Source of the DNA: Albula goreensis
Taxonomy: Eukaryota; Chordata; Actinopteri; Albuliformes; Albulidae
Assembly (NCBI GenBank): GCA_022829145.1
Contig: CM040751.1
Location: 6,327,364 to 6,391,363 of the forward strand
Direction of reading: 5' to 3'
Length of the DNA: 64,000 bases
Below the pieces are notes generated by a model. That model searched no databases. It was not told the DNA's origin and saw only the letters and a program-made list of their open reading frames with translations. How positions within the stretch are numbered: position 1 is the stretch's first letter; each line of letters starts with the position of its first letter. This document shows, one piece after another, positions 1-49,027 of the stretch. The translations under genes and the position numbers were made by a program.

Positions 1-1800
1 ATGTATTAATGAAGTTTCAGAAAGTATGTTCAGATCTTTTGTCGTGTCCCGAAAACTACAAAAAATTGCTTTTTGATTCATGAATTGTATAAATAATCCA
101 TGTTTCATTTTTATACTGCAGTCCTGTGCAGGCATGTAGAAAGTATGTCACCCATCATTTCAAGTAGATATGTACAAACCCCTATGATACAATCACGCAC
201 AGGAAGGTATTGTGGTCAGTTTGTACTCCTTGATGAAAATGAATGAACACGATAAAACATTAATTCCCATATATCATCTGGGAGTATGCACTACATAGCA
301 CAATTCAGTGAAATAAATCAACTCTGACGGAGTACATTTTACCCCAATTGGTCTCCAAAGTCGAAACCTTATTAGTCTAAGAAGTATAAAGTTAGAGTTA
401 AATTAACCCTGAAGTTATTTCTGTGTAACCCTGACGTTATTCTGTGCAGTTCTGATGCTGAACGGAGACATAATTCAGGCCGTTGATACTGTTATTTTAA
501 ACAGTGTAGCCATTGTACCTTGTGTCTCCACCTCTGTTTTATACGGCATGTTTGTAGATCTTAAGTGCCAAGAAACTGCTACCCCCCCTCCCACCTCCAC
601 TGTGGACAGTGAATATCACTTGACTGTGCTTGTCTATGCCCACCAGATTAAAGGAGTCCAATGATCATTTCAAATATGGGAAAGACAACACCATCAATCG
701 TGCCAATAATATCGACTGTTAGGTAAAGCTGACACTACAACCACACCCTACAACCACCCGCCAGCTTGGGGCTCTGGAGGAAAACGTTCCGTATTTGGGA
801 ACTTTCTCCATTCTTTACATTGTTTCGTATATACTGGAATGTTTAGTGAGAACTAACACAAATTCCATTCACCGCTGTGTCCCTGGTATACATCTTTACT
901 ATATCGCTGAATCATCACCCCATGTCTGTGTCTCTGTGCTTAGAATGCAGTTGGGTGGTTTATTCTTTACACCGTGTTGTTTAAATCGGATGTGTACTAT
1001 TACTTTCCATCAAAACCTCTTCAGGTGACAAAGAACAATCCCCACACATGCCATGAGCTAAGCAGAAAAATAATACGCAATGAAGCGTGACTCGGCACTG
1101 AAGAAAGCAGCCAGACTCCTAACAGCTTTCAGTGAGGAGCTCTGCTTCATGCCCGAGCGAGGGACCTCGCGGCAGAAGTCTTAACACCTTCACAACACCC
1201 ACAAAATCCAGCCGACTAATGAGATATGAATGCAGTTACTGCAGCTGTAGATTTAAACAGAAAAAAGAAAAAAAAAAACCAACAAAAAAAGTTGCTGTGT
1301 ATGTTTCGAGGAACTGAGATTCTCTGCTGTGGGCTTCTGTCACTGTGAAAGGTTATTCTATTCATCTAATGGCAGAGAACTCAGCCAAAGTCCTCTTTGG
1401 TATTTTGAAACTGTACCGCTTGGATAGAAAAATAAATTGTTGCTGAGCCTTAGTCGAATGTTGATTATTGGGTTACCGGTCGTGTGCGTTGGCTGCAAGG
1501 GGGTTCTTAAAGGATCCTTCCAGAAGCATTCCAGGCAATTACAGTTCAATCAGGTGCACTGTTCTCGTGTTTTTCAAAAACTGTTGCACCACAGCTCAGT
1601 CATTCCGTACTTACTGACCAATTAAGACAACCGCTACAACTTTCACAGCTAACCCACTCCACCTCATTTCTTGGTTCTAAACTTGCTGTGGATTTTCAGG
1701 TAAAAACAAAAACCAGCATAAACTCCAGCTCTCCAGGATCTGGCCTGAGGACCACTGAACTAAACAATCAAAATATGGTGTAACCACAAAAAATAAACGA
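1..1800. other. Noncoding unique sequence
   Basis: AT-rich single-copy sequence. Apart from a short tandem duplication at 404-446 I see no repeat family, RNA gene or exon. Short open frames here have no domain signal. An A-rich stretch at 1260-1290 is simple sequence. Confidence 0.6.
404..446. repeat. Tandem duplication, 2 x ~22 bp
   Basis: TAACCCTGA-GTTATT-CTGTG occurs twice head to tail (404-425 and 426-446). The copies differ by one substitution and one T deletion. This is a local slippage-type duplication with no sign of function. Confidence 0.8.
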
Positions 1801-1939
1801 GGAGCAGTGCATCTTGGACTGGCTCCACCGTTCAAGCCGCACGCCCAAACGATATCAGAAGGACTTGATACACCTCAGGTAAAGATATCCTTTGGGTGTG
1901 TTCCTTGAATTATGGAGCCAGTCCAAGATATCCTGCTCC
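1801..1939. repeat. Long imperfect inverted repeat (hairpin / possible MITE or small-RNA precursor)
   Basis: Left arm 1801-1856 and right arm 1884-1939 are each 56 nt and align without gaps as reverse complements at 45 of 56 positions. The match includes a perfect 17-bp block (1811-1827 with 1913-1929) and matching GATATC at the loop edges (1851-1856, 1884-1889). The loop is 27 nt. Several mismatches would be G:U pairs in RNA, which gives roughly 49 paired positions, and the remaining mismatches form small symmetric internal loops. Weaker similarity (TAACCA and a run of six A) continues just outside both arms, which suggests a foldback transposon remnant. A primary-microRNA-like or siRNA-producing hairpin is the alternative. 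I do not recognise a known mature microRNA in it. Confidence 0.75.
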
Positions 1940-2528
1940 GAGTATGTTTTTTCTTTCATGGTTATTCAGTATCTTGCTGCAACCAGCACCTCATGGATAG
2001 AGTAACATGTCTGTGCACAAGGCTTTTTCTAAATTAATTTAATAAAATTATGGTTCTGATGCAGCCCATACTAAAATCTGTGCAGTTTTTCCTGAATCAT
2101 ATTGCACACACTCGTGCTTTTGACTGGCTTGTCTCAAATTGTGTCATCACCCAAGTTTTCAACAGAGTTTATGCTATGCAAGTAAAAATGTCCTGTAAGA
2201 TTTTTTCCCCCCATATTGCTTAAATTTTCCCTTCCCTCTGAAGACATAGAAGGCACAAAGTAAGACTTTGCAAATAATGAGCGTATGTCAAAAGAAAAAG
2301 GGACTTGTCATGTGACGAATGCACTTCGGTCTGTTGCTACAGTGTTCCATTTTGTAACAGGCAATTGAAATAAACGCTGTGTCACCACAGTTCCAATACA
2401 GCAACCTTTAAACTGGCACAAAGTGCTGTGTTCCCTGCAACTATTTCAGAGTTAGTGCAACACACAGTTTGAAAGATTTATTGGAACTTTAGGCAAATAG
2501 CAGCATACCATGAGCGAGATGTAATAGA
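1940..2528. other. Noncoding unique sequence
   Basis: Single-copy AT-rich sequence with no supported gene or repeat. Confidence 0.55.
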
Positions 2529-2531
2529 TTC

Positions 2532-2576
2532 ACCTTTCTCCCCCTCTTTCTTTCCCTTCTTTCTGTCTCTCTATCT

Positions 2577-2607
<31 letters not shown>
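2532..2607. repeat. Pyrimidine tract followed by CG/CA alternating repeat
   Basis: A C/T-rich tract (2532-2575) runs into ACAC, (CG)4 and then (CA)n (2577-2607). The first half is a homopyrimidine-type tract. The second half is an alternating purine-pyrimidine run of the kind that favours Z-DNA. Confidence 0.8.
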
Positions 2608-2724
2608 CCCTCTCTGCCTGGTGAAGAGACTGCAGCTATAATCAATTAGCCCACACACTTTTGGGACATAAAGAGTATCTACTGACAAAATAATTGTGAA
2701 TGCCAGAGGAAGACAGACAAATAG

Positions 2725-2736
2725 CCAATGACGTCA
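2725..2736. promoter_or_regulatory. CCAAT box overlapping a consensus CRE
   Basis: CCAAT (2725-2729) is fused to the palindromic cAMP response element TGACGTCA (2729-2736). NF-Y and CREB/ATF sites commonly pair in vertebrate promoters. No transcript or first exon can be seen next to it, so its activity is unproven. Confidence 0.4.
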
Positions 2737-2739
2737 CTC

Positions 2740-5700
2740 TTACATCAACAGCCACCTGTGACCCTGCCCGTTGTCTTTGGCATCCCCGCGAAGCCACATT
2801 TTTAGGTATATTTTGTTTTGGAGTTCCCAAACAAAATCCTGACCTATTATATGTTATCACTTCAATCATGTGTCATTCATGAAATAACCAAAATTATGCA
2901 GAAATATATGGAGGTGGTTAAGTACATATTAAATATTTATTTATTGTGCTAAATATAGTTTAGGGCTTGGTAGATACAGACTTCTCAGACGATGGGATGT
3001 TTAGACTAATTAAGCCAAATGGGAATCGGCGATAATGAAAACTAGCTCTCAAGATATTCCTCTTTAGCAGCAGCTAGGGCTTTGTGTTTATGGAACGCAG
3101 CACAGGATGGGGCGACTCCACTTCGTCGTGTGTCCCTCTTCTCTCACATCGGTTAATTGGAAAATAAGAGCCGGTGACTTGTTCAGCCATTCGAACCTTT
3201 TGAGGCAGCTCAAACTTGCCAGGAACTGAGCAACAAATTAAATATTTTATCGTTGTATTTCCATGTTTTAAAACTATCCACAGTCTGAATAAACAGAAAG
3301 AGGAAACAAACAGGCTATTGGTTTTGACATTGCTGGAATAAGATGAAGGATCTAGTCAGACTTACAAATATTAGATTTTGAGAGCTTGTGCACAAACCTT
3401 ACAGAAGCTCGGTAAATGTAACGGCAGGTATGCTTTTGGGATGAGCAGGCTCATGGTACTTGTCTATGTCACAAATGGTAAGTTGCTACATTATATCCTG
3501 CACAGAGAAGGTATGGCTTTGTATTACAGTTTGGACAGCCTCCCACACTAGTTAAGAACCATATTTTTTATGGTTTTTGCTGCGAGAATGTGATAAAGTT
3601 CACGTCCTGATGAGAGTGCATATCGCAGTGCTCCTCAGGTTGACGTTTTCATATTACGGTGCATTTGTCAAAAACAGAAAACAGGTGGGAAAAGAATGGA
3701 AAGGGACCACAAGCAAGAGATGGCACTTTTTTTTTTTTTTTTTTAAACACGTTGTCATTCTGAACGTGTTATCCATTCACTGAATGAATCTTCCTCCTTT
3801 TCTATTTATTTATAGGTCCTTCAATTCCGCTGTACGCCCTGCATTTCGCACTTCAGTTGTGACTTGTTTCCTATGCACGATTCCATTCAGAGGGCTTCAT
3901 TTCCTTCCCCTAAGTTCAAAAGCATATCATATCTCTGGCTGTAAAGTGGAGTGTTCTTCCCCTTCCCTCCTTGCATTGTGAGTGGGATAAATGTATTTTT
4001 ACCAACATTCCCATCTTCTCCGCATATTAGTGCCGTTATACGGATCTTTTTTTTTGTTCAGGCTACAGAGATTTGATGTGCTTCTATTCTCTGTCCAATC
4101 TGGCTGGCTCAGGATAGCTATATCTGACGTATCTCACTCTGTGATCTCTAATCTATAATTAATAATCTTGCTGTTGTCTCTTCGATCCACGCCCGGGTTC
4201 ACAGTATCTGATGGGCTTTTCAGCAATTCTCTTTTAATTTCATATTGCTATACGGAATATTAATGGTTCGTATACAGTTTCATAGATTAATCGTGTTTGT
4301 TCTTTTGTGTAATTCTCATTTGCTTGCACAGCACATGAACGCAGTCTCAACTGAACGATCTGAACTATTTAGTTTTTATGTATGTTACTCTCTGTCCTGT
4401 ACATTTCTAATAAGTTAAATAATTCAGGTAGAAAACATACATTTTTAAAGGTTTGGTGTTGGCTCTGGTTTCCTCTTACGTTTGAAAATCATAACATTCC
4501 TATTCCTACATTACTTTTGAACGGTACAAGCACAACACATTTTAGAATATATTCATATGATGGTCATTTCATGTGATGCATTGGTGTTGTAAAATCCAAA
4601 ATCCTCCCACTCTAATTGTACAGGAGGACTAATACATGTTTGTAAGTATGTAATTAATAGTTAATTGTATGTTTCATATATGTAGTAACAGTATGTTTAT
4701 AAAACCACATTTAAAACATATGAACTTTAGGATTTTAAGCACATGTAACCATTTAAAGCAAAGGACATGGTGATTAATGATTATTCTGTTCCACATTTAT
4801 ATGAGAATATGGACAAATTAGGGGTAGAAAGGCAAAAAGCACCAAAGAACAGAGTGTGCTTCTTCCCTTATCAACCCAAGATATCCCTCCCTATGAACAT
4901 TATAGAAGGCACAACTGAAATAATCTGCATTATGATGCCTGGAATAGAAGACGAAGGTTGATGTATCGTTCCTGTATCTGATCTTTATACAATGTGAAAA
5001 ATTAGTGAATAAAAAATGAAACCCCTTTCAGACAGAGTTGGAAAAGTAACGTCTTATTTGCTGAGTACCTGTACTTGTGTCACATTTTCAAAATATACAA
5101 GAGCATATGACATGGCACATGGAAATCGTGTGGAAAGAAAGGAAATTTAGCCTGTTATCCAGAATACTCCTGTCAATGAATTGTCAATTTCCAGTATTTA
5201 AGCCATTCTGCAACACCGTAGTCAGGCTAGAAGTTGTGATGATTTAAATAAATTCACCTGCAATAAAAAACACAAACATTTTGATGTCGAAACAAAGTAA
5301 GACAGAACCACACTGGAAATCAGGAAATCCTGAATTGTTAAAATATGAATGTACCAAGCAAAAAAGTTGCCAAAGCTCATCTCTCCAAAGTTAAGATGCA
5401 CCCACACACAAACAACAAAGAAGAAAAAACGAGTGAGAAGAGGAGTGAGATGCAAGAGAAATTCACAACTCCACCTCGACTTGAACTTTAAGGGGTTTAC
5501 AGTTTAGACTAAACTTCACTTCCTTTTGGTTATAATATGTATTATTTTGTTCCTTGCACACATGCCAGCATCTTGTATTCAGACATGGGGATTCCCCCCA
5601 TCTGCCCGACTCAATAATTAACAACCTCTTTACAAGAGTCAATTCTTTTGTTTGTGAACATCACATGCACTTTTTTTTTCAATGAAATGGTGGTTTGGCT

Positions 5701-6020
5701 CGTATGTTGAGGAAAACATCTCAGGTAACCATGAAAGTACCAAAATTATATGACCGACTGTTCTCTGGTCAGGCCTGACTTTTCAGGCCATCTATCCCGT
5801 GGTCCTGTGGTGGCCGACACAGCCCCACACACACACTCACTGACACATACAAGTCCATGCAGGATCTAAAATCATCTGCCGTCTTCCGTCAAGTGTTTCC
5901 TTGGATAATTAATGAATTAAAATGAATGAAATGATTCATAATTTACAGTATGTCTTACTCACAACACTGAAAATGAATGCTTGGGAATGAAAAAAGATAA
6001 AGAGGCTGATATCATACATG
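2740..6020. other. Noncoding unique sequence
   Basis: AT-rich unique sequence. It contains an 18-T run near 3727 and an ATTTATTTATT patch near 2935-2945. No exon, tRNA or recognisable mobile element is visible. Confidence 0.55.
3727..3744. repeat. Poly-T tract
   Basis: Eighteen consecutive T. No retrotransposon body is recognisable beside it. Confidence 0.9.
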
Positions 6021-6183
6021 TTTTTTTTTTTTTTTTTTTGGAATAACCAGAAATGGACCCTTATGTGAAGTTTTCCTTATGAGCAGTGATTCGAGTATGG
6101 AAGAACAGTTAAGATATTTGTGCTGTTTATTTTGTATGTCCATACAAATCAGAAATTGGTTTAAAAAAAAAAAAAAAAAAAAA
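6021..6183. repeat. T19 and A21 tracts in inverted arrangement
   Basis: A 19-T run (6021-6039) and a 21-A run (6163-6183) face each other across 123 bp. In single-stranded form they could pair as the stem of a large hairpin. The intervening sequence matches no repeat I know. Confidence 0.7.
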
Positions 6184-6589
6184 CACATGACCAACCCCAA
6201 ACTCCCATCCCCCCGTATTTGATGAAACTGAGACACACAATTTTGGGTGAACAAACTGAATACGCCCAAGTAATGGAAACACAGCTCACACTGTGTGATG
6301 AAAAGGTGCATTCTTGGTTTAAAAAAAATCTCATCTGTTTTAAAATCAGGGATGTAACAGGGCTGTTCCAGTTTTAAATGCTTCAGTAACACATTTTAAG
6401 GGAAAGACAAATGATGTGCTCTTTTTTGCTCTGATCGTGCTTGGGACCTCAAGCACTTCCCGCTCTCCTTTGTGAGCCTCACTGTGCCTTCACATGGTTC
6501 TTCACATGCCAGAATCATGATTGCTTTTACATGTGAATGAGTCATCAAGCTATGCAGCACTCTGTCCCTAGAGGGAAGGCTACTGTACC

Positions 6590-7090
6590 GAATGCGCATT
6601 GCCTTAATCCCAGGTTTATTTCAGCAGGTGTGGGATGCTGGCACAGTCACCCTGGGGGTTCGGGGAGCTTGTCCGTACTGTACACATCTGCATCTGAACC
6701 AGCCGTGGGGGATATGAAAATCTTTTAATGCGTTGCGTGTCTCGCATACATATGAGGCAGAGAGAATAGACGAGCTCGGGAAACTCGGTGCGGTTCAGCC
6801 GCGCATTGGGGCTCCGGGTCCGCCGCCAACTAATTCCACGTAAGCTAATAAACAATTTAAATGCCACTTCGACATCAAAGTGGGCAGGATCAGAATGTTG
6901 AACCTTTCGGGGCAATGGGGGTGGCAGCTGGTGACAAGGTGTCGACCCACCAGGGGCTGTATCATTTCGGCGACTTGATTGGCGTGTTGGGTTGCTGTGG
7001 GACGCCCAGGGGCGGGCTGCCCGGGAGAATGAAAACCCATTGTTAATGAGTTGCTGAGGATCTCTGAAAATTATCTCAAGAGAAAAGGCA
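6590..7090. promoter_or_regulatory. Candidate conserved noncoding block
   Basis: This is a complex, CpG-containing stretch in otherwise AT-rich surroundings, free of simple repeats. It carries TAAT-type cores (TTTTAATGCG near 6723, TAATAAACAATTTAAAT near 6846, TTAATGAG near 7042) mixed with GC-rich sequence. Open frames on both strands (including 178 codons on the minus strand) reflect low stop-codon density and have no domain. The enhancer reading is inference; conservation was not tested. Confidence 0.3.
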
Positions 7091-7099
7091 AGGGATGGG

Positions 7100-8210
7100 C
7101 AGGGGTTGGGGGTTGGAGGAATATCCGCTCTTCCAAGGGAACCTGCTGGCAATCAAGACTTCAGGTGAGGGAGGACGTGGTTTGTTAGGTAATTATTCAG
7201 CCCATTCATTGGTCATTGCTAACACTGTGCCATTTTGCAATTGGAAAAGATTCATGAGGCTTTCAATGAAACGAAATTCCGTCACCTTTCAATCAAATAT
7301 TGCATGTGAAAAGTTTAAATCAAATATGAAATCTGAATGTGCTGAGTTGCACTCAAATGTATTGTAAATGCTTGAAAAACATCCATATTATGCAATGGAC
7401 ACATGAACATCTGGGAAATTGTTGAAAACAAACCCTGTTGTTTCAGTTTACTATGAGTATATTTCATTCCCTTGAATACTTGCTCAATCAAATATAAGAA
7501 CTTTTCTTGTGAATTGCATGATTCATAGCTATCACACAGCAACCTTGGCGTCCTCTGGCTGTGTATAGTGAAGTTGTACTTTATCATCAATGCCACTAGC
7601 ATCTTAAAACATTTGTTGAAAATGCTGTGTTGTAAATGTTCTAGCCTTGAACATGTTACCTTTTCTTGTGTACCGGTACCAAATTTAACAAATCCTCTAA
7701 GCATTTGTACAGAAAGTTTTTAAATCGCTGTGTTTATCTCACATTATCTCACAAGAGATATAAATAGATTGATGTGCATCCATTTTATTCCCCATCTCCT
7801 ACGATATCACTGTTCATTAACACCTTTCATTTGAACATGGGACTTTTGTGTCAGGGCTGACAAAATTTTTAGAATACTATTTTCATGGGTCTAAAAAGAT
7901 GTCCTACTTTTTGCATGCATCACAATTCCTCATTGCAATTACCTGCTATCTTTGTCTTTTGTGGTTTGTTTTTCTGTCTTTCCCCATATCAGATCATTTT
8001 GACTTGTTTATTTATTATAAGTCAAGCTTCATAAGGCTTCACATTGGGAGGAACAATGATCTGTCAGTCATTGACTGTCATTGTTTAAACTGTTCAAGTT
8101 TTTCGATTCTACCTGAGCTTGATACATTTATGAATGGTGATTTCTTTGCTTCACTTGGCCCATACTTATCCATGAGGACTAGCACGTGCAATGGCTGTTG
8201 TTATGTTCAC
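7100..8210. other. Noncoding unique sequence
   Basis: AT-rich single-copy sequence with no supported gene, RNA or repeat. Confidence 0.5.
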
Positions 8211-8214
8211 AGTT

Positions 8215-8610
8215 AGAGAGGGGAAAGCTCTGCCTCGAGCCTCAAATCAATGCCGGGGGATTTGATTGTAGGGTTGTGGATCTCCCGTGCAGCAAGTCTC
8301 TCACGGGGCGAACCTGATTATACCTGATTTGTTCGGTTTCGTCTTCCTTGTCCGGTTCTCCGTGCCGCCAGTGTTTTATGATGCGAAGGTTACACATGAT
8401 GCTAACCCACTGGACAAAGCCTCATTATCTGCCACCGTATTTGTCGGCAGTCCAGACAGCTGCCATGGGCTGAAATCCCAGCAGTCTGTCTCAGATCGCC
8501 GTCTCTTCAACTTTCTTTCAATGCTTCTGAGGGCCGCCAGACAGCATGCAACATTGTCTTTGTTTTTGTCGTGTAATTTTGAGCACAGCAGGGTCTTGAC
8601 ATGACAACAG
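8215..8610. promoter_or_regulatory. Candidate conserved noncoding block
   Basis: A balanced-composition stretch with scattered CpGs (around 8300-8360 and 8490-8500) and no simple repeats, between AT-rich flanks. A 105-codon plus-strand frame crosses it but shows no family signature and no splice-consistent boundaries. The regulatory reading is inference from texture only. Confidence 0.25.
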
Positions 8611-8619
8611 CTGAAAGTT

Positions 8620-10920
8620 GTGGAATTTTTTGATCTTTTAAGCCATTATCCTGTTCATGAATGATGTATTCATCTCCCCAGCCTGGGTTTGTGCTTCTGG
8701 TAATGATTCAACTGAATTTCCAGATTCCTAAGAATGTTCATGACTGTGGAGCTGCAGCTGTTAAATCAAAAGTCATCTTGTTTCAACCAATCAAAACTGG
8801 TTTATCTTCACAGCCAATGAAATAATTAATACAAAACGTTGAGGGACTGATGCTGAATGGCAGCTCCACCAGTTTTTGAAGAGTGAAATCTTACTCCCCA
8901 TCAATACAAGGGATAGCTTATTTTTTCAGATATGTAGGTAATATGGTAATTTTTTAAAAATCCTCAAAAGCAAAGTGGAAAATAAAAAACTTTGGGTTGT
9001 CCGGTCGATAATGCCTTGAAAGAGGATGCTTTCTGTCACGGCTACTGTACTGGAACCTCCTTTAGGGAACTGCAGCAGGAGACATCAGAAGGCTAGGGAC
9101 TCCAGCTGGTCTGGACGTGATATTTGGGTGACATTTTAGTGACAGGGAAGAGAAAGGGGGCCTTTTTAAAATTGATGTGAGGAGATTTCGGGACAGCTGA
9201 CACAAGAGATGACGGAAACCGGGGTGGTCGGCTTGTCACCGGAGGGTAGAGACCACTGAAGCTAAGACAGAGATATAAGAGGCAAAGTAAGTGACCTAGC
9301 ACTGTCTAAGCCTGACTATTGGTGGAAATTTCCAATATCCAGGGACTTAACGAAACACTCTTATTTATCATTCCCCTTTTTGAAGATGAACAGAAAAGGC
9401 TGTGCAGAAGAACACAAAACACAGGAACACAAAGAATAAAATATATTTTATGTTAAATCATACAATTATTTTCTTTTTTTCTCCATATACATTCTTTATA
9501 AATTGTTTTATACAAAATATTTAGAATTTATCTGCATGAGTTTTTGTTTGAATGTTTAAAAGTATATTTAAACAAAATGTTTAAATTTTGATTGCGTACA
9601 CACATTTAATCCTGATATTAACTCCAGATTTAACTTTTTACCTATGTTTAAATTCCTTTTTATGGGCATTTCCTATGTAAGGATGTCTCCTTGAGACATA
9701 AGGTAGCACCAGGATGTCAGGCTTAATCTGTGATAATAAATGCTGATGAATAAAGTTCCTATGTAGATTAAATGTTCTCTGAGGACTGTATTGTGCAAAT
9801 TCAAAAAGATACATTTGACCTGCAGTGCACGCATCCAAAACCTTGAACAGAGCACCACAACATGCCACAATTGTTAAACTTTAGAAGCTCCCGAATGAAA
9901 CAATCTGCAAGGTCTGAGCCAAAGGTTTAAACAGCTGTGTCATTCAAATTGAGATAGCACTTCAGTTAGTTCCCATGGCATATTTAACCTACATGGCACG
10001 TCTTCTAGTGTACTTCAGCTTATTTCTTTTGAAGAGGCAATTACATAACCTGATGTGCCCTCAAAACTTATCTGGGCTGCAATCACAGCCATTGTGGATC
10101 CTGTGTAGGTGTAGATACTCCTTTGTGATGAAGGAAATGGCTTATTCAAATCAATCAGGATATGTATGTTTCACTTTCCTCTGTGTGACACTCTAGCTTT
10201 AAACACATAAAAAACACATTTTTCAGTCTTGTGGTCAAGGATGCAAATAGCATTGACATTGTAATGAAAATCAAAACAGCAAATATGGCTTATGTATTAG
10301 GAAACTGGTCATATAGTTTCATAAATCTTACTTTGGTGCTCATACAGTGAATTCATTTATTTGACAAAATCTCTGTCGGTGAGGTACAGATTAACCATGG
10401 CCATTTGGCATGAGGATCTCAAAAGCAATCTCAAAAACAAAACCAATCCAAGATAAAACAAGCTTTGCCTTGCACAAGCTCATGTATGACGCAGATTAGG
10501 TCAATTTGCGGGGCGAATTTTAGCACTAGATCAAGGTGTAACTTGTTTGGGATAAAGAATTTGGTTGGTATGTGGATCCAAAAGGGAAAAAATTATGTTG
10601 ATAACAGCTGAGCCAGGAGTTTCATAACTGTAAATTAATGTTTGGGGAAAAAAATGGATGCATGAATGTGAATGTTTAAACATTCCAAAGGAGTTGACTT
10701 CAGCATAACTGCATGTTTAAGTTGTGGTTGCCCTGGGGCATTGAATGAAAGAACACGGGTAATTAGTTTATTGATGTCAGGATGGACGACTCATCTGTGG
10801 TACAGAGAATCTGACCTTTGTTGTCTGAAATCTCAGGATTCAATTACCCTGTGTGATAGACTGTTGTGTGGGATTTATCTCCAATATTCAGACACATGCA
10901 TGCAAACATCCAAGAGGGTT
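8620..10920. other. Noncoding unique sequence
   Basis: AT-rich. The stretch 9400-9660 is especially AT-rich and contains a short inverted repeat built on GTTTAAA/TTTAAAC (about 9555-9575). No gene or mobile element is recognised. Confidence 0.5.
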
Positions 10921-10924
10921 AAAC

Positions 10925-11060
10925 AGGAAAACACACACACATACAGAGACAGAGAGAGAGTGTTTAGATATATTGGGGAAAGTTGTGCAGACACACACAC
11001 ACAGAGGTCAAATATACAAGGACATGCAAACCAACACAGGTTCCATACATAAGGGAATAT

Positions 11061-11128
<68 letters not shown>

Positions 11129-11222
11129 TCACACACAAAGCATGCATATAAAGGGGAAGATGCACACACACAGACTCCCAAGCACCATACAGTATGAATA
11201 CATATGAACAACACACACACTG
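10925..11222. repeat. CA-rich region with long (AC)n microsatellite
   Basis: The core is an uninterrupted (AC)32 at 11062-11125. Shorter CA runs lie at about 10930-10942, 10989-11001, 11163-11170 and 11209-11220. Open frames of up to 114 codons here encode His-Thr or Cys-Val repeats and are artefacts of the dinucleotide. Confidence 0.95.
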
Positions 11223-11229
11223 TCTGGTT

Positions 11230-12300
11230 ATGTATGCAAAAAAAAATCATTTGCTTTTCTGTGCGTCAACATTTCCATTCGTATTTTAAGAATGTTGTTG
11301 AAATCATCGGGAAAATCATAAAGCAGGTTGCAGTCCTGCCTGACGGACTGGCCTGGAATCAATCAACATTTTGACCTTAACTTTGTCAGTCAATAAAATT
11401 CAAATTACCTTATTTGGCAACATCACGAGTCAAGTTCTGCTCATCAACAAACTGAAGGAAAACAAACACTTGATTTTTTTTCCCCTTTCCCATGAAAATT
11501 AATGTTGATCGAAACTAGTCTTGATGAATTTCTTAATTGTATTCTGCCAGTGATGGAGTTTATGTCCATTGTAAATGAGAAACCCAAACAAAGGGGTCTC
11601 AATAATGTTGACAGCAATATGATGTTTATACTGCTTGGTGCTTGTGCAAAATGAATGATTATAACTCCAACTGTCACTGTGTCCCCATAAGTGATGGCCA
11701 CAGCTGTCCTTGGCTTTCCGTCATTTCCTCGGACAAAGTTGGTGTAACTTACTTTGAATATTTGAAACAAATAAAACATGTCAAAACAACTTTATGTAGG
11801 GAATATGCACAGTCACTTAATTCTGGGAAATGAAGAACAGAATAAATAAAATGTGCAGCCCTCAAGGTGTTGTCCTGTTCATTGATGAAAAACTTACATA
11901 TTTTCAAAGGAACACACAAACATGATTCTGGGATCAAAGGCTGGCAAATACCTCATGTTACCACGGTAACGCCCATCCAATGAGAGTCGACGATGGTCAT
12001 GCAGCCGTAGTTATTTTGTACCCTGCTCTCAGGGACACAAATAGAGTTGTCTTTCCTCTCCAGTCATTTCACTGACTTTTGAGGGGGAAATATAGTTTGA
12101 CACTTGCAACAGCTCTCCATTTAGCAGTCAACTCTGCTGTTAGTCAGTCTACAGAGAAAAGCTTTAAGGCCAGCATGGTTTTATATAACTTCTGGCCTCC
12201 CTCAGAAGTTCAAAAGTCTGGAGTTTACACATCTTTACAATCATTCTTATTCCATGATTTCATGTTCTTTGAGTATCGTACTGGAGACAAGCGCATGTCA
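11230..12300. other. Noncoding unique sequence
   Basis: Unique sequence with no supported gene or repeat. Confidence 0.5.
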
Positions 12301-12303
12301 TTT

Positions 12304-12352
12304 GTGTATATTTATAAAATATAGCATATATAATATATATAACAGCATATGT
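12304..12352. repeat. AT-rich simple sequence
   Basis: TATA/ATAT-rich stretch just upstream of the degenerate module array. Confidence 0.7.
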
Positions 12353-12383
12353 TGTTGAATACATGTGCTTACATATGAGTCAG

Positions 12384-12705
12384 GTTTGATTGGACCGCAA
12401 GTGCCCTCGAAGTGACTGAGGTCGGGATTCAGTCAAATGTACTTACAATAAATGGAATAGCATATTCCCTTTAAGATACTGAAGTCTGTTTTTATTGAAT
12501 TGCATATGCCCTCAAAGTGACAAAGTGAGTGTGACTGCATCCCAGGATAACTGTGTTTGATTGAATTCAGCCCTTGAGGTATGCTTTGGTATTCCAATGA
12601 AATGTGAGACTTTATTGAAGACAAGCAAACATGTCCTGTGGAATGTGTTCTTTTAATTTTAAAATGGACAGCATGTGCCTTCGAAGAGATTCAAGTCTTA
12701 TTTGT
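12384..12705. repeat. Degenerate array of ~42-bp modules
   Basis: Diverged copies of one motif recur. It consists of a GCATATGCCCTCAAAG-like core, a GACTGAAGTCT-like segment and a TTTGATTGAATT-like segment. Core starts are at 12397, 12460, 12502, about 12566, 12625 and 12671. The best-preserved spacing is 42 bp (12460 to 12502); other spacings of 46-64 bp suggest indels. Related sequence lies at 42640-42850, 56344-56370 and 59784-59825. The family is not one I recognise. Confidence 0.6.
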
Positions 12706-12709
12706 ATGT

Positions 12710-15275
12710 CTTGTACCCTTTCCCTCTTTATATATCTGCTTACTGTGTATTCATTTATGCAATGATGCCAAGAGGAGAAAAGGATGTGAAAGGGATATGA
12801 CAGAACCTGACCCTTCATGTGACCCTCGCATTAAAAATGACAGCTATGTATGCTCAATAAATTTGTCATTCACATATGGCCAAAAGGAATGAAAACACGA
12901 CATGTAAATTAACAGCTAGATTTGACTGCAGATGTCAATGGATGATTTTGTAGAGAAAGTGTTACTCAGCAAAAGAAATGTTTTTGATTTGTCAGTCTCA
13001 TTTAATGTAGTCTGCTTGACCTATATATTGAGCCTCAGGATGAATGAGGTTCTCCCAACTGTTATGGACAAGCAGGAGTCACCTGCATCTCCTCTCTCGC
13101 ATTGTCAGCAGCCAAATGGTTCATTAGGCAGTCATATCTTGGTATTCATTAATGTGTAATCCCAAATCCCAGAGGTCTTAAATCTAGCAGAGTTTTCTCC
13201 CAATGACCAATTACACCGCATCTCATATGACTATCCAATCAAATAATGCCTGCAATGAAATAATAATAATAGAAAGTCAAATAATGCACCAGAAAACCAC
13301 CCTCAGGCAGTAGATTCATTTTTGATACACGTTGAACACTTCCTATAAAATATTCAAATTCAAAAAACTGTATGCCAGAGCGGGAGTCCCATGGACCCAC
13401 TGTGCATGTTGGTTTACATTCCAACCACAATCGTGCCCTCCGTATTACAGCAAACCGGACCATTTTTAACAAAGGGATGAGTCGTCCGTGTTGAGAAATA
13501 AACATATCCTAAAAAGCTATCCATGCCTCAAAAACTCATTCGCCTCCTTAAGGTTTAAAAAGTCACACAATCGATGTATTTATTGTCCATGATCTTTTTG
13601 CAATACCGTTCAAGAGAGCTCACAGGCAAAGCACAAGACAATAAGGCAAACTTTGTGTTGAAATAAGTGTATGCCGTGTATACTGTATGAGAACACAAAC
13701 ACTTGTTTCTCAACAGCTTTGCCTAATCAGGACAATGACTAAAGCAAATGTATGCACAGTGGTCTTCAGTGTGTAATACATACATAAACAAATAAACACA
13801 ATGAAACTTTGTTTGTTTGTCCCTATCAGTAACGTCTGTCATGTCAGAGAGACCAAAAAATGACATTAATGTAAACGTAATGCAAAATCTACACCCATAG
13901 AAGAACATTTTGTTTTCATAGTAAACAATATTTTGGTTTTTTTATATTTACCCAGCTTTGACTGAAAAAGTCTGGCAGCTGGAACTCTAAAATCACAGTC
14001 ACGAACATCACGCGTGAAACGAAACGGAACACTGACACCCAATCACTGTCGAGAGAGCCCCTTCAAATGTTTGTTCTCTATCCATCAATAGTCACGCTGC
14101 CGAAGCACCAGGAACCTTGAGAGAACACTGTGTACTAAGACATTCTGCTGGCTTTACAATCAATACTTCTGCACAAATATTACTTGAATTTGGCTCTCTC
14201 TCTGAGTAGATGAGTGCTTTTGTAAGGATCTGGGAAAGAACATGCGGATCGTGTGTGAGATAGCAGTCCGCATTGCCTCGGAATGCTTTTAAGGCAGGAA
14301 ACATGAAGCTTTCATCTTCAACCACTCGTCTTTCTGAGAGTTCTACAATGCAGAATTTATGCTTTGTGTCAAAATTTGTCTGCAAGTGCCAACATTTTTA
14401 AAATATATGTATTTTTTTTTTTTAGTTTCTCTTTTCAGGTGGTTTGCTTGTCAGGCTGACTAATTTCTTTCTCATTTCAATCTTCTGTACCTTTGTCCAG
14501 ATTCCATAGATGTATTTTGCTGATACACCAATAGATAGCACCTGTTTCAGATTAATTCCATGCCCCTTTAAAATCCACTGCCTTGGGGGTGAGTAGTGAC
14601 CCAAGGCCACTGAAGCAGCTGCAGTCCAATAACAATCAAGACGTCTTGCAGCGTTCAGGCTAGATTGCGCACCAGCACATCCGGTCTTATCCATCGACAC
14701 GCTCTCGGCAAAGCAAACGAGAGGATCAGAGAGGTTTCATTAAGCCGGGAAAGGAATGCATATTTCAGAGATGACAAAACAGAGGTGAAAACTACTGCTC
14801 CGTCTTCACCTCCCGACGGAGTGCTTTTTATTTCCCCGGTTTGTCGTGTCATGGTAATCAAGGTAGCAGTGTGTGAGCACCTCGGACCCTCAGGCTGTCG
14901 TTCCATCATTCTGTAGTCATGAAAACAGAGCAACCAAAGCAGCTCATTGCTGTACCTTCCATCGCTTGATTTGATTTCATACAAACCCAAACCTGTCTGC
15001 ACGTCCATATTTTCTGTTGTTTTCATGTCCTTGTTTGAAATGTATCCATTTGTATCCTGTGACACTTGTGTGCTGCAAGTTATTTGAGTCCAATAGAGTC
15101 CAGACAAACAGGCTATGGTTAATCAACACAACTTTTGATGCAAATAGGTGACGATGGAATGATTGTTTCACAAAACTGACCATATTTAGTACGTGCTGAA
15201 CAGTATTAATGGAGACTCAAGAGAAGAACAAGGGTTTAGTAATTTGAACCAGGACCAACAGCACCTGATAGCTGG
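12710..15275. other. Noncoding unique sequence
   Basis: Apart from the block at 14630-14920, this is AT-rich unique sequence with an ATA/ATT-rich patch near 13259-13272 and a T-run near 14411-14423. Frames on the minus strand around 14092-14385 and 14655-15107 are open but carry no recognisable domain. Confidence 0.5.
14630..14920. promoter_or_regulatory. Candidate conserved noncoding block
   Basis: Complex, CpG-containing sequence without repeats. It includes a small CTCCGTC/GACGGAG inverted repeat near 14799-14822. Frames are open on both strands, but neither resembles a known protein. The regulatory function is inferred. Confidence 0.25.
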
Positions 15276-48954: not shown

Positions 48955-49027
48955 ATGTTTTTCAGCGCTCCAATGTGAATGGTTTTTAAACATGTTTTTC
49001 AGCGCTCCAATGTGAATGGTTTTTAAA
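48955..49027. repeat. Tandem duplication, 2 x 37 bp, nearly identical
   Basis: Copies at 48955-48991 and 48992-49027 share TTTTTCAGCGCTCCAATGTG and the following GAATGGTTTTTAAA. No base differs until the last position (C versus G). The near identity points to a recent duplication. Confidence 0.95.

Follow-up and report, generated by a model that had tools for sequence, protein, structure and literature searches.

The insertion of Penelope-like retroelements is poorly understood, and the hairpin described here is a possible footprint of its mechanism. Inserts of this group, as portrayed in PMC3846280, can carry an adjacent inverted pLTR with an optional tail on one inverted pLTR, and some are flanked by duplications of 8-10 bp; in the same paper, Penelope palindromes are attributed to self-priming on an antisense template. 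PMC8969392 characterizes Penelope-like elements as 5′-truncated and superficially LINE-like. With respect to biochemistry, PMC11167929 reports that a purified Penelope-like protein from a lizard cuts and extends both target strands, that reverse transcription starts at two adjacent internal sites on the RNA whose interval is the genomic tail, and that described tails measure 30-40 nt. In that study, the start site did not apparently differ between the top and bottom strands.

The window considered here, by which we mean the whole 64,000-nt stretch of Albula goreensis DNA that was analysed, contains a hairpin that can also be compared with two other systems. In LINE twin priming, an inverted piece comes to lie beside a 3′-complete piece with target duplications around both, and the two pieces are expected to derive from adjoining, non-overlapping parts of the RNA. 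The other system is the Made1 MITE, which derives from a DNA transposon, measures 80 bp and has terminal repeats of 37 bp. Like the window locus, it is a nearly palindromic mobile element whose transcript would form a hairpin (PMC1784062).

A preliminary description of this DNA gave the hairpin 56-nt arms (1801-1856 and 1884-1939) paired at 45 of 56 positions without gaps, up to 17 perfect pairs in a row and a loop of 27 nt, and recomputation returned identical figures. The full ungapped arms are longer and pair at 54 of 69 positions:

1788 to 1952, no strand assigned: hairpin with ungapped arms of 69 nt each (1788-1856 and 1884-1952) and a 27-nt loop

Folded as RNA, the + strand reaches -83.9 kcal/mol (z = -12.3) and the - strand -81.2 kcal/mol (z = -11.2), and none of 200 shuffles was equally good on either. 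The hairpin is therefore not a chance structure (fold z = -12), which bears out what the preliminary description had assumed. Comparison of the locus with the window by BLAST returned the inverted match at E = 5e-16, and a scan of the window for inverted repeats with ungapped 50-nt arms matching to at least 76% and loops of up to ~300 nt identified the hairpin at 1788-1952 as the only one of its kind in the 64 kb. Gapped extension past 1788 and 1952 is not significant taken alone (p = 0.15); judged by comparison with other copies, the right-hand copy extends to ~2040. Mismatches between the arms are clustered, with permutation p = 0.008 for the 69-nt arms and p = 0.002 for the 56-nt arms.

Judged by their matches across the genome (932 Mb in 208 contigs), both hairpin arms are copies of a dispersed repeat. 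The genome size and a CpG ratio of 0.46 are in keeping with the fish source implied in the preliminary description. With the hairpin as query, at least 25 places were found, the window locus included. At 20 of the 24 others a single stretch is matched by both arms, the left on one strand and the right on the other; the remaining four match the left arm only. The arm sequence is therefore present once at these places and twice in the window. Later mapping revealed a second, inverted copy near some of the one-copy places. Use of a longer copy as query added 19 places, for a family of at least 44 including the window locus, a lower bound given that only the best candidates were scored in the genome search. 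The count of arm copies proposed in the preliminary description is thereby supplied; no further copies were found elsewhere in the 64-kb window. De novo template switching (PMC8794818) was dropped as an origin when the arms turned out to belong to a dispersed repeat.

Mapping of all 44 places against a probe assembled from two copies gave 56 pieces. In what we infer to be the sense direction of the element, the ends of these pieces favor two sites ~75 nt apart: 19 of 56 are tailed and finish in AAGGCTTTTTTTCCTAAATTATTT or similar, 25 finish near an inner untailed site in TTTTTCGTGGTTA or similar, and 12 finish elsewhere (end sequences were compiled for the pieces of 39 places). The other, inner end is variable, ranging from probe position 51 to ~630, and some copies have common sequence past ~630. 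Direct repeats flank the element at shuffle p ≤ 0.01 in 13 of the 44 places (13 of 39 distinct places, after exclusion of L042 and L043 as duplicate rows, and none of five places added later) and are absent at that threshold from 31. Twelve of the thirteen are 10-15 nt long and 74% A+T; the last, at L024, is 18-19 nt long with mismatches. Duplications at this level that surround no inverted pair occur at L014, L016, L020, L024, L025, L029, L050, L052, L056 and L061. Taken together, the preferred ends, variable truncation and target duplications form the pattern of a 5′-truncated, target-primed retroelement.

These data also bear on the foldback transposon suggested in the preliminary description. 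Its broader sense, a mobile-element insertion of two inverted copies, is upheld. Its narrower form, a MITE (a short DNA transposon ending in inverted repeats), would share with this family its many copies and the target duplications around some of them, but it should show inverted ends on every copy and duplications of fixed length. Instead, 36 of 44 places have no close inverted pair by a 200-nt criterion, the inner ends vary as described above and the duplications vary between 10 and 15 nt, so that a retroelement is indicated and a MITE is scarcely credible. The variable ends, along with the lack of any sign of a selected hairpin, likewise distinguish the family from Made1.

Mapped onto the probe, the window's own insertion resolves into the following parts:

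1766 to 1779, + strand: probable left target-site duplication, AATCAAAATATGGT, identical to 2041-2054 at 12 of 14 positions (shuffle p = 0.067)
1781 to 1868, - strand: left arm, an inverted, untailed, truncated retroelement copy matching probe 68-152
1869 to 1883, no strand assigned: junction between the copies and part of the hairpin loop, lying between the BLAST pieces
1884 to 2040, + strand: right arm and tail, a direct, tailed, truncated copy, of which 1884-2028 matches probe 140-4
1965 to 2040, + strand: tail of ~75 nt, spanning the interval from one alternative sense 3′ end to the other, placed from the piece-end counts
2041 to 2054, + strand: probable right target-site duplication, AATAAAATTATGGT, identical to 1766-1779 at 12 of 14 positions

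The inferred sense strand of the left copy is the - strand of the window, and its sense 3′ end, TGGTTA, lies at 1781. By eye, the junction retains a likeness to the sequence that continues the left copy in the family; the last 12 nt of the right copy were likewise placed by eye, in alignment with other tailed copies. The two mismatches of the candidate duplication leave an agreement that was equalled in 4 of 4000 random flank pairs and by none of 63587 other 14-mers of the window compared with AATCAAAATATGGT, figures to be read with the fact that the length and offsets of the duplication were picked after the match was seen. Most simply, the pair represents one insertion occupying ~1781-2040.

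Pieces on opposite strands no more than 200 nt apart are present at 8 of the 44 places (L010, L015, L019, L048, L049, L055, L059 and the window); L026 and L051, with inverted pieces further apart, and L021, with an inverted piece beyond the probe, were not counted. One outer end is tailed in each of the eight pairs, and the other falls near the untailed site, at probe 57-73, in six of them (the exceptions are L049 at probe 91 and L055 at probe 39). The two pieces of a pair overlap on the element in seven cases, L010 being the exception. Duplications around the whole pair are clear at L015 (14/14) and L010, where in each case none of 300 shuffles was as good, and at L049 (p = 0.003). The corresponding values are 0.027 at L059, 0.067 in the window, where the duplication is weakly supported, and 0.073 at L048; no clear duplication surrounds L055 (p = 0.16) or L019 (p = 1.0).

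One way to arrive at such a pair is for two truncated copies to insert independently, next to each other and in opposite orientation. The dispersal of the family, with 36 of 44 places having no close inverted pair, is compatible with this origin, and so is L019, where no duplication encloses the pair and the halves agree with the majority at 68% and 94%. It is nevertheless quite improbable for the window, given that as many as 8 of 44 places hold close inverted pairs, that all of these have one tailed end and that duplications enclose the whole pair at L015, L010 and L049. At L019 itself, the tailed half (1959-2082) is the 68% member and the other half (1726-1915) the 94% member, an unequal divergence hinting that this particular pair may have arisen by two separate insertions.

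A single insertion could also result if the cDNA of the element folded and copied itself, in the self-priming or snap-back manner, or if an ordinary LINE underwent twin priming. Variable truncation and duplications of 10-15 nt fit LINEs too, and self-priming on an antisense template is what PMC3846280 proposes for Penelope elements. Plain snap-back, however, should give a variable outer end, and the second end lies at probe 57-73 in six of the eight pairs. With respect to twin priming, the window family resembles LINE inversions in having an inverted piece beside a 3′-complete piece with duplications round both, but its pieces overlap on the RNA in seven of eight pairs, L010 alone being free of overlap, and its second outer end is mostly near one fixed site. 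We regard self-priming and twin priming, taken together, as unlikely.

Our structural reading of the locus is instead that the hairpin probably derives from one old insertion, at ~1781-2040, of a truncated and probably Penelope-like retroelement, in which both cut strands were primed and the resulting cDNAs joined. The record to be accounted for comprises two preferred 3′ ends, variable truncation, duplications around some whole pairs, a single tailed end in eight of eight pairs and arms that have diverged privately. From it we infer the enzyme, the priming of both strands and the joining. The element's endonuclease would cut both target strands in a staggered manner, and each cut strand would prime reverse transcription on the RNA of the element, with one start at the tail site and the second ~75 nt further inward. 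After early arrest and joining of the two cDNAs, two overlapping copies would remain back to back between target duplications and form the hairpin. Should the element prove Penelope-like, the combination of a tailed with an untailed end in each pair would give a testable insertion rule. The mixture of tailed and untailed ends is neither predicted nor explained by the lizard study, which saw no apparent strand difference in the start site (PMC11167929).

With respect to its identity, the element resembles the Penelope/Poseidon clade, as portrayed in the sources above, in its 5′-truncated copies, in having a truncated copy inverted at one end, in a tail that may occur on one side and in short target duplications. 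Two alternative 3′ ends separated by a tail interval are present (19 tailed, 25 untailed and 12 other ends), an inverted truncated copy with a tail on one of the two occurs at 8 of 44 places (tailed in 8/8, at the untailed site in 6/8), and short target duplications occur at 13 of 44. In contrast to the 30-40 nt given in PMC11167929, the tail of the window family is ~75 nt, about twice as long. The element is a candidate member of the Penelope-like group. A member would be expected to have a single ORF for a reverse transcriptase and, as a rule, a GIY-YIG endonuclease, with tandem pseudo-LTRs (pLTRs) on either side of it and a hammerhead ribozyme motif in the pLTR. Searches with Pfam of the three sense frames of L042, L043, L047 and L051, none of which is full-length, found no reverse transcriptase or GIY-YIG domain and returned only sub-cut-off matches to unrelated families; six frames of window positions 1-15000 gave nothing at E ≤ 0.1. 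The stretches compared, among which there is no full-length copy, showed no two pLTRs in direct tandem.

An additional observation concerns a motif following the hammerhead core pattern, CTGAAGA ... GAAAC ... GTT within a 5-bp flush stem, at corresponding places in two copies:

L026, ~2090 to 2130, - strand: hammerhead-like core, with no proper stem II and no Rfam match
L025, ~1914 to 1948, + strand: hammerhead-like core, with no proper stem II and no Rfam match

The core is found at none of the 128,000 positions on both strands of the window, whose truncated copies stop short of this part of the element; a third match, in L017, lies elsewhere in the element, and the L021 copy is without most of the hammerhead-like part. 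The majority sequence of 27 aligned pieces, some of which stop before this part, keeps CTGAAGA, has CAAAAC instead of CGAAAC and shows one mismatch in the stem; a perfect stem of 9 bp is obtained only if the G of individual copies is supplied by eye. Rfam detected no hammerhead in 12 family loci at the gathering score, nor in single stretches of L021 and L026 at a relaxed threshold.

A more specific version of the Penelope-like reading, which we put forward tentatively and consider rather doubtful, is that the family is a non-autonomous satellite of a Penelope-like element, that its tail is unusually long and that it may retain a hammerhead-like core in decay, and that its inverted copies are the footprint of priming on both strands, at the tail site on one and the inner site on the other. 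If this were true, the pairs would be a natural record of the both-strand extension demonstrated in the test tube for the lizard protein, and they would add a strand preference in start site that the lizard study did not see.

The preliminary description had also raised the idea of a small-RNA precursor, and a microRNA or hairpin siRNA, perhaps recruited from a repeat as human mir-548 was from Made1, can be weighed against the divergence of the arms. The very stable fold on both strands is in keeping with such a role, and palindromic elements have become microRNA genes according to PMC1784062. Against it, a search of Rfam (not miRBase) with the hairpin returned no family at the gathering score, the best sub-threshold match being a plant hairpin family, which scored 34 bits where the gathering score is 200. 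Ten substrings of the arms had no match in the literature searched. The usual stem of an animal pri-miRNA is about half as long as that of the window hairpin.

Relative to the majority of the 35 other pieces covering the arm region (the five later-added places are not included), 18 arm positions are changed: 7 in the left arm only, 10 in the right arm only and 1 in both. The change common to both arms is the same base found in 7 of 31 other pieces; the other 17 of the 18 positions are private. By definition the two arms form no Watson-Crick pair at a private change, and in no case has the opposite arm changed to match; no convincing compensatory change was found among the 18 positions, a comparison that draws on paralogous copies only. 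The clustered mismatches are a mix of left-arm and right-arm changes. A few of the private letters recur as frequent variants elsewhere in the family, such as an A that 14 of 35 pieces have at one site, and part of the difference between the arms may date from the insertion. The excess of G:U over A:C mismatches (5 and 2 of 15) was uninformative as to strand. On sequence grounds, the arms appear to reflect decay rather than a maintained RNA, with no sign of selection on the hairpin, which is most likely a relic without present function. Independent change in the two arms, the long stem and the lack of an Rfam match all tell against the earlier suggestion, and a small-RNA precursor is very improbable. 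An eye-catching hairpin explained as a by-product of transposition also counsels caution in naming such stems microRNA genes.

Several minor observations were made alongside. In a viral contig (L001), a matching 17-mer had no hairpin around it and was taken as chance. L043 and L044, ~2.8 Mb apart on contig C23, have ~4.3 kb in common at 98% identity adjoining the old repeat, which may be a recent duplication or a young mobile element. A walk outward from L043 met an unrelated and far commoner repeat, which adjoins the copy at L043:6300-6410 (464 first-look candidates). Within the window itself, positions 48955-49027 hold a 37-bp unit as a perfect tandem pair.
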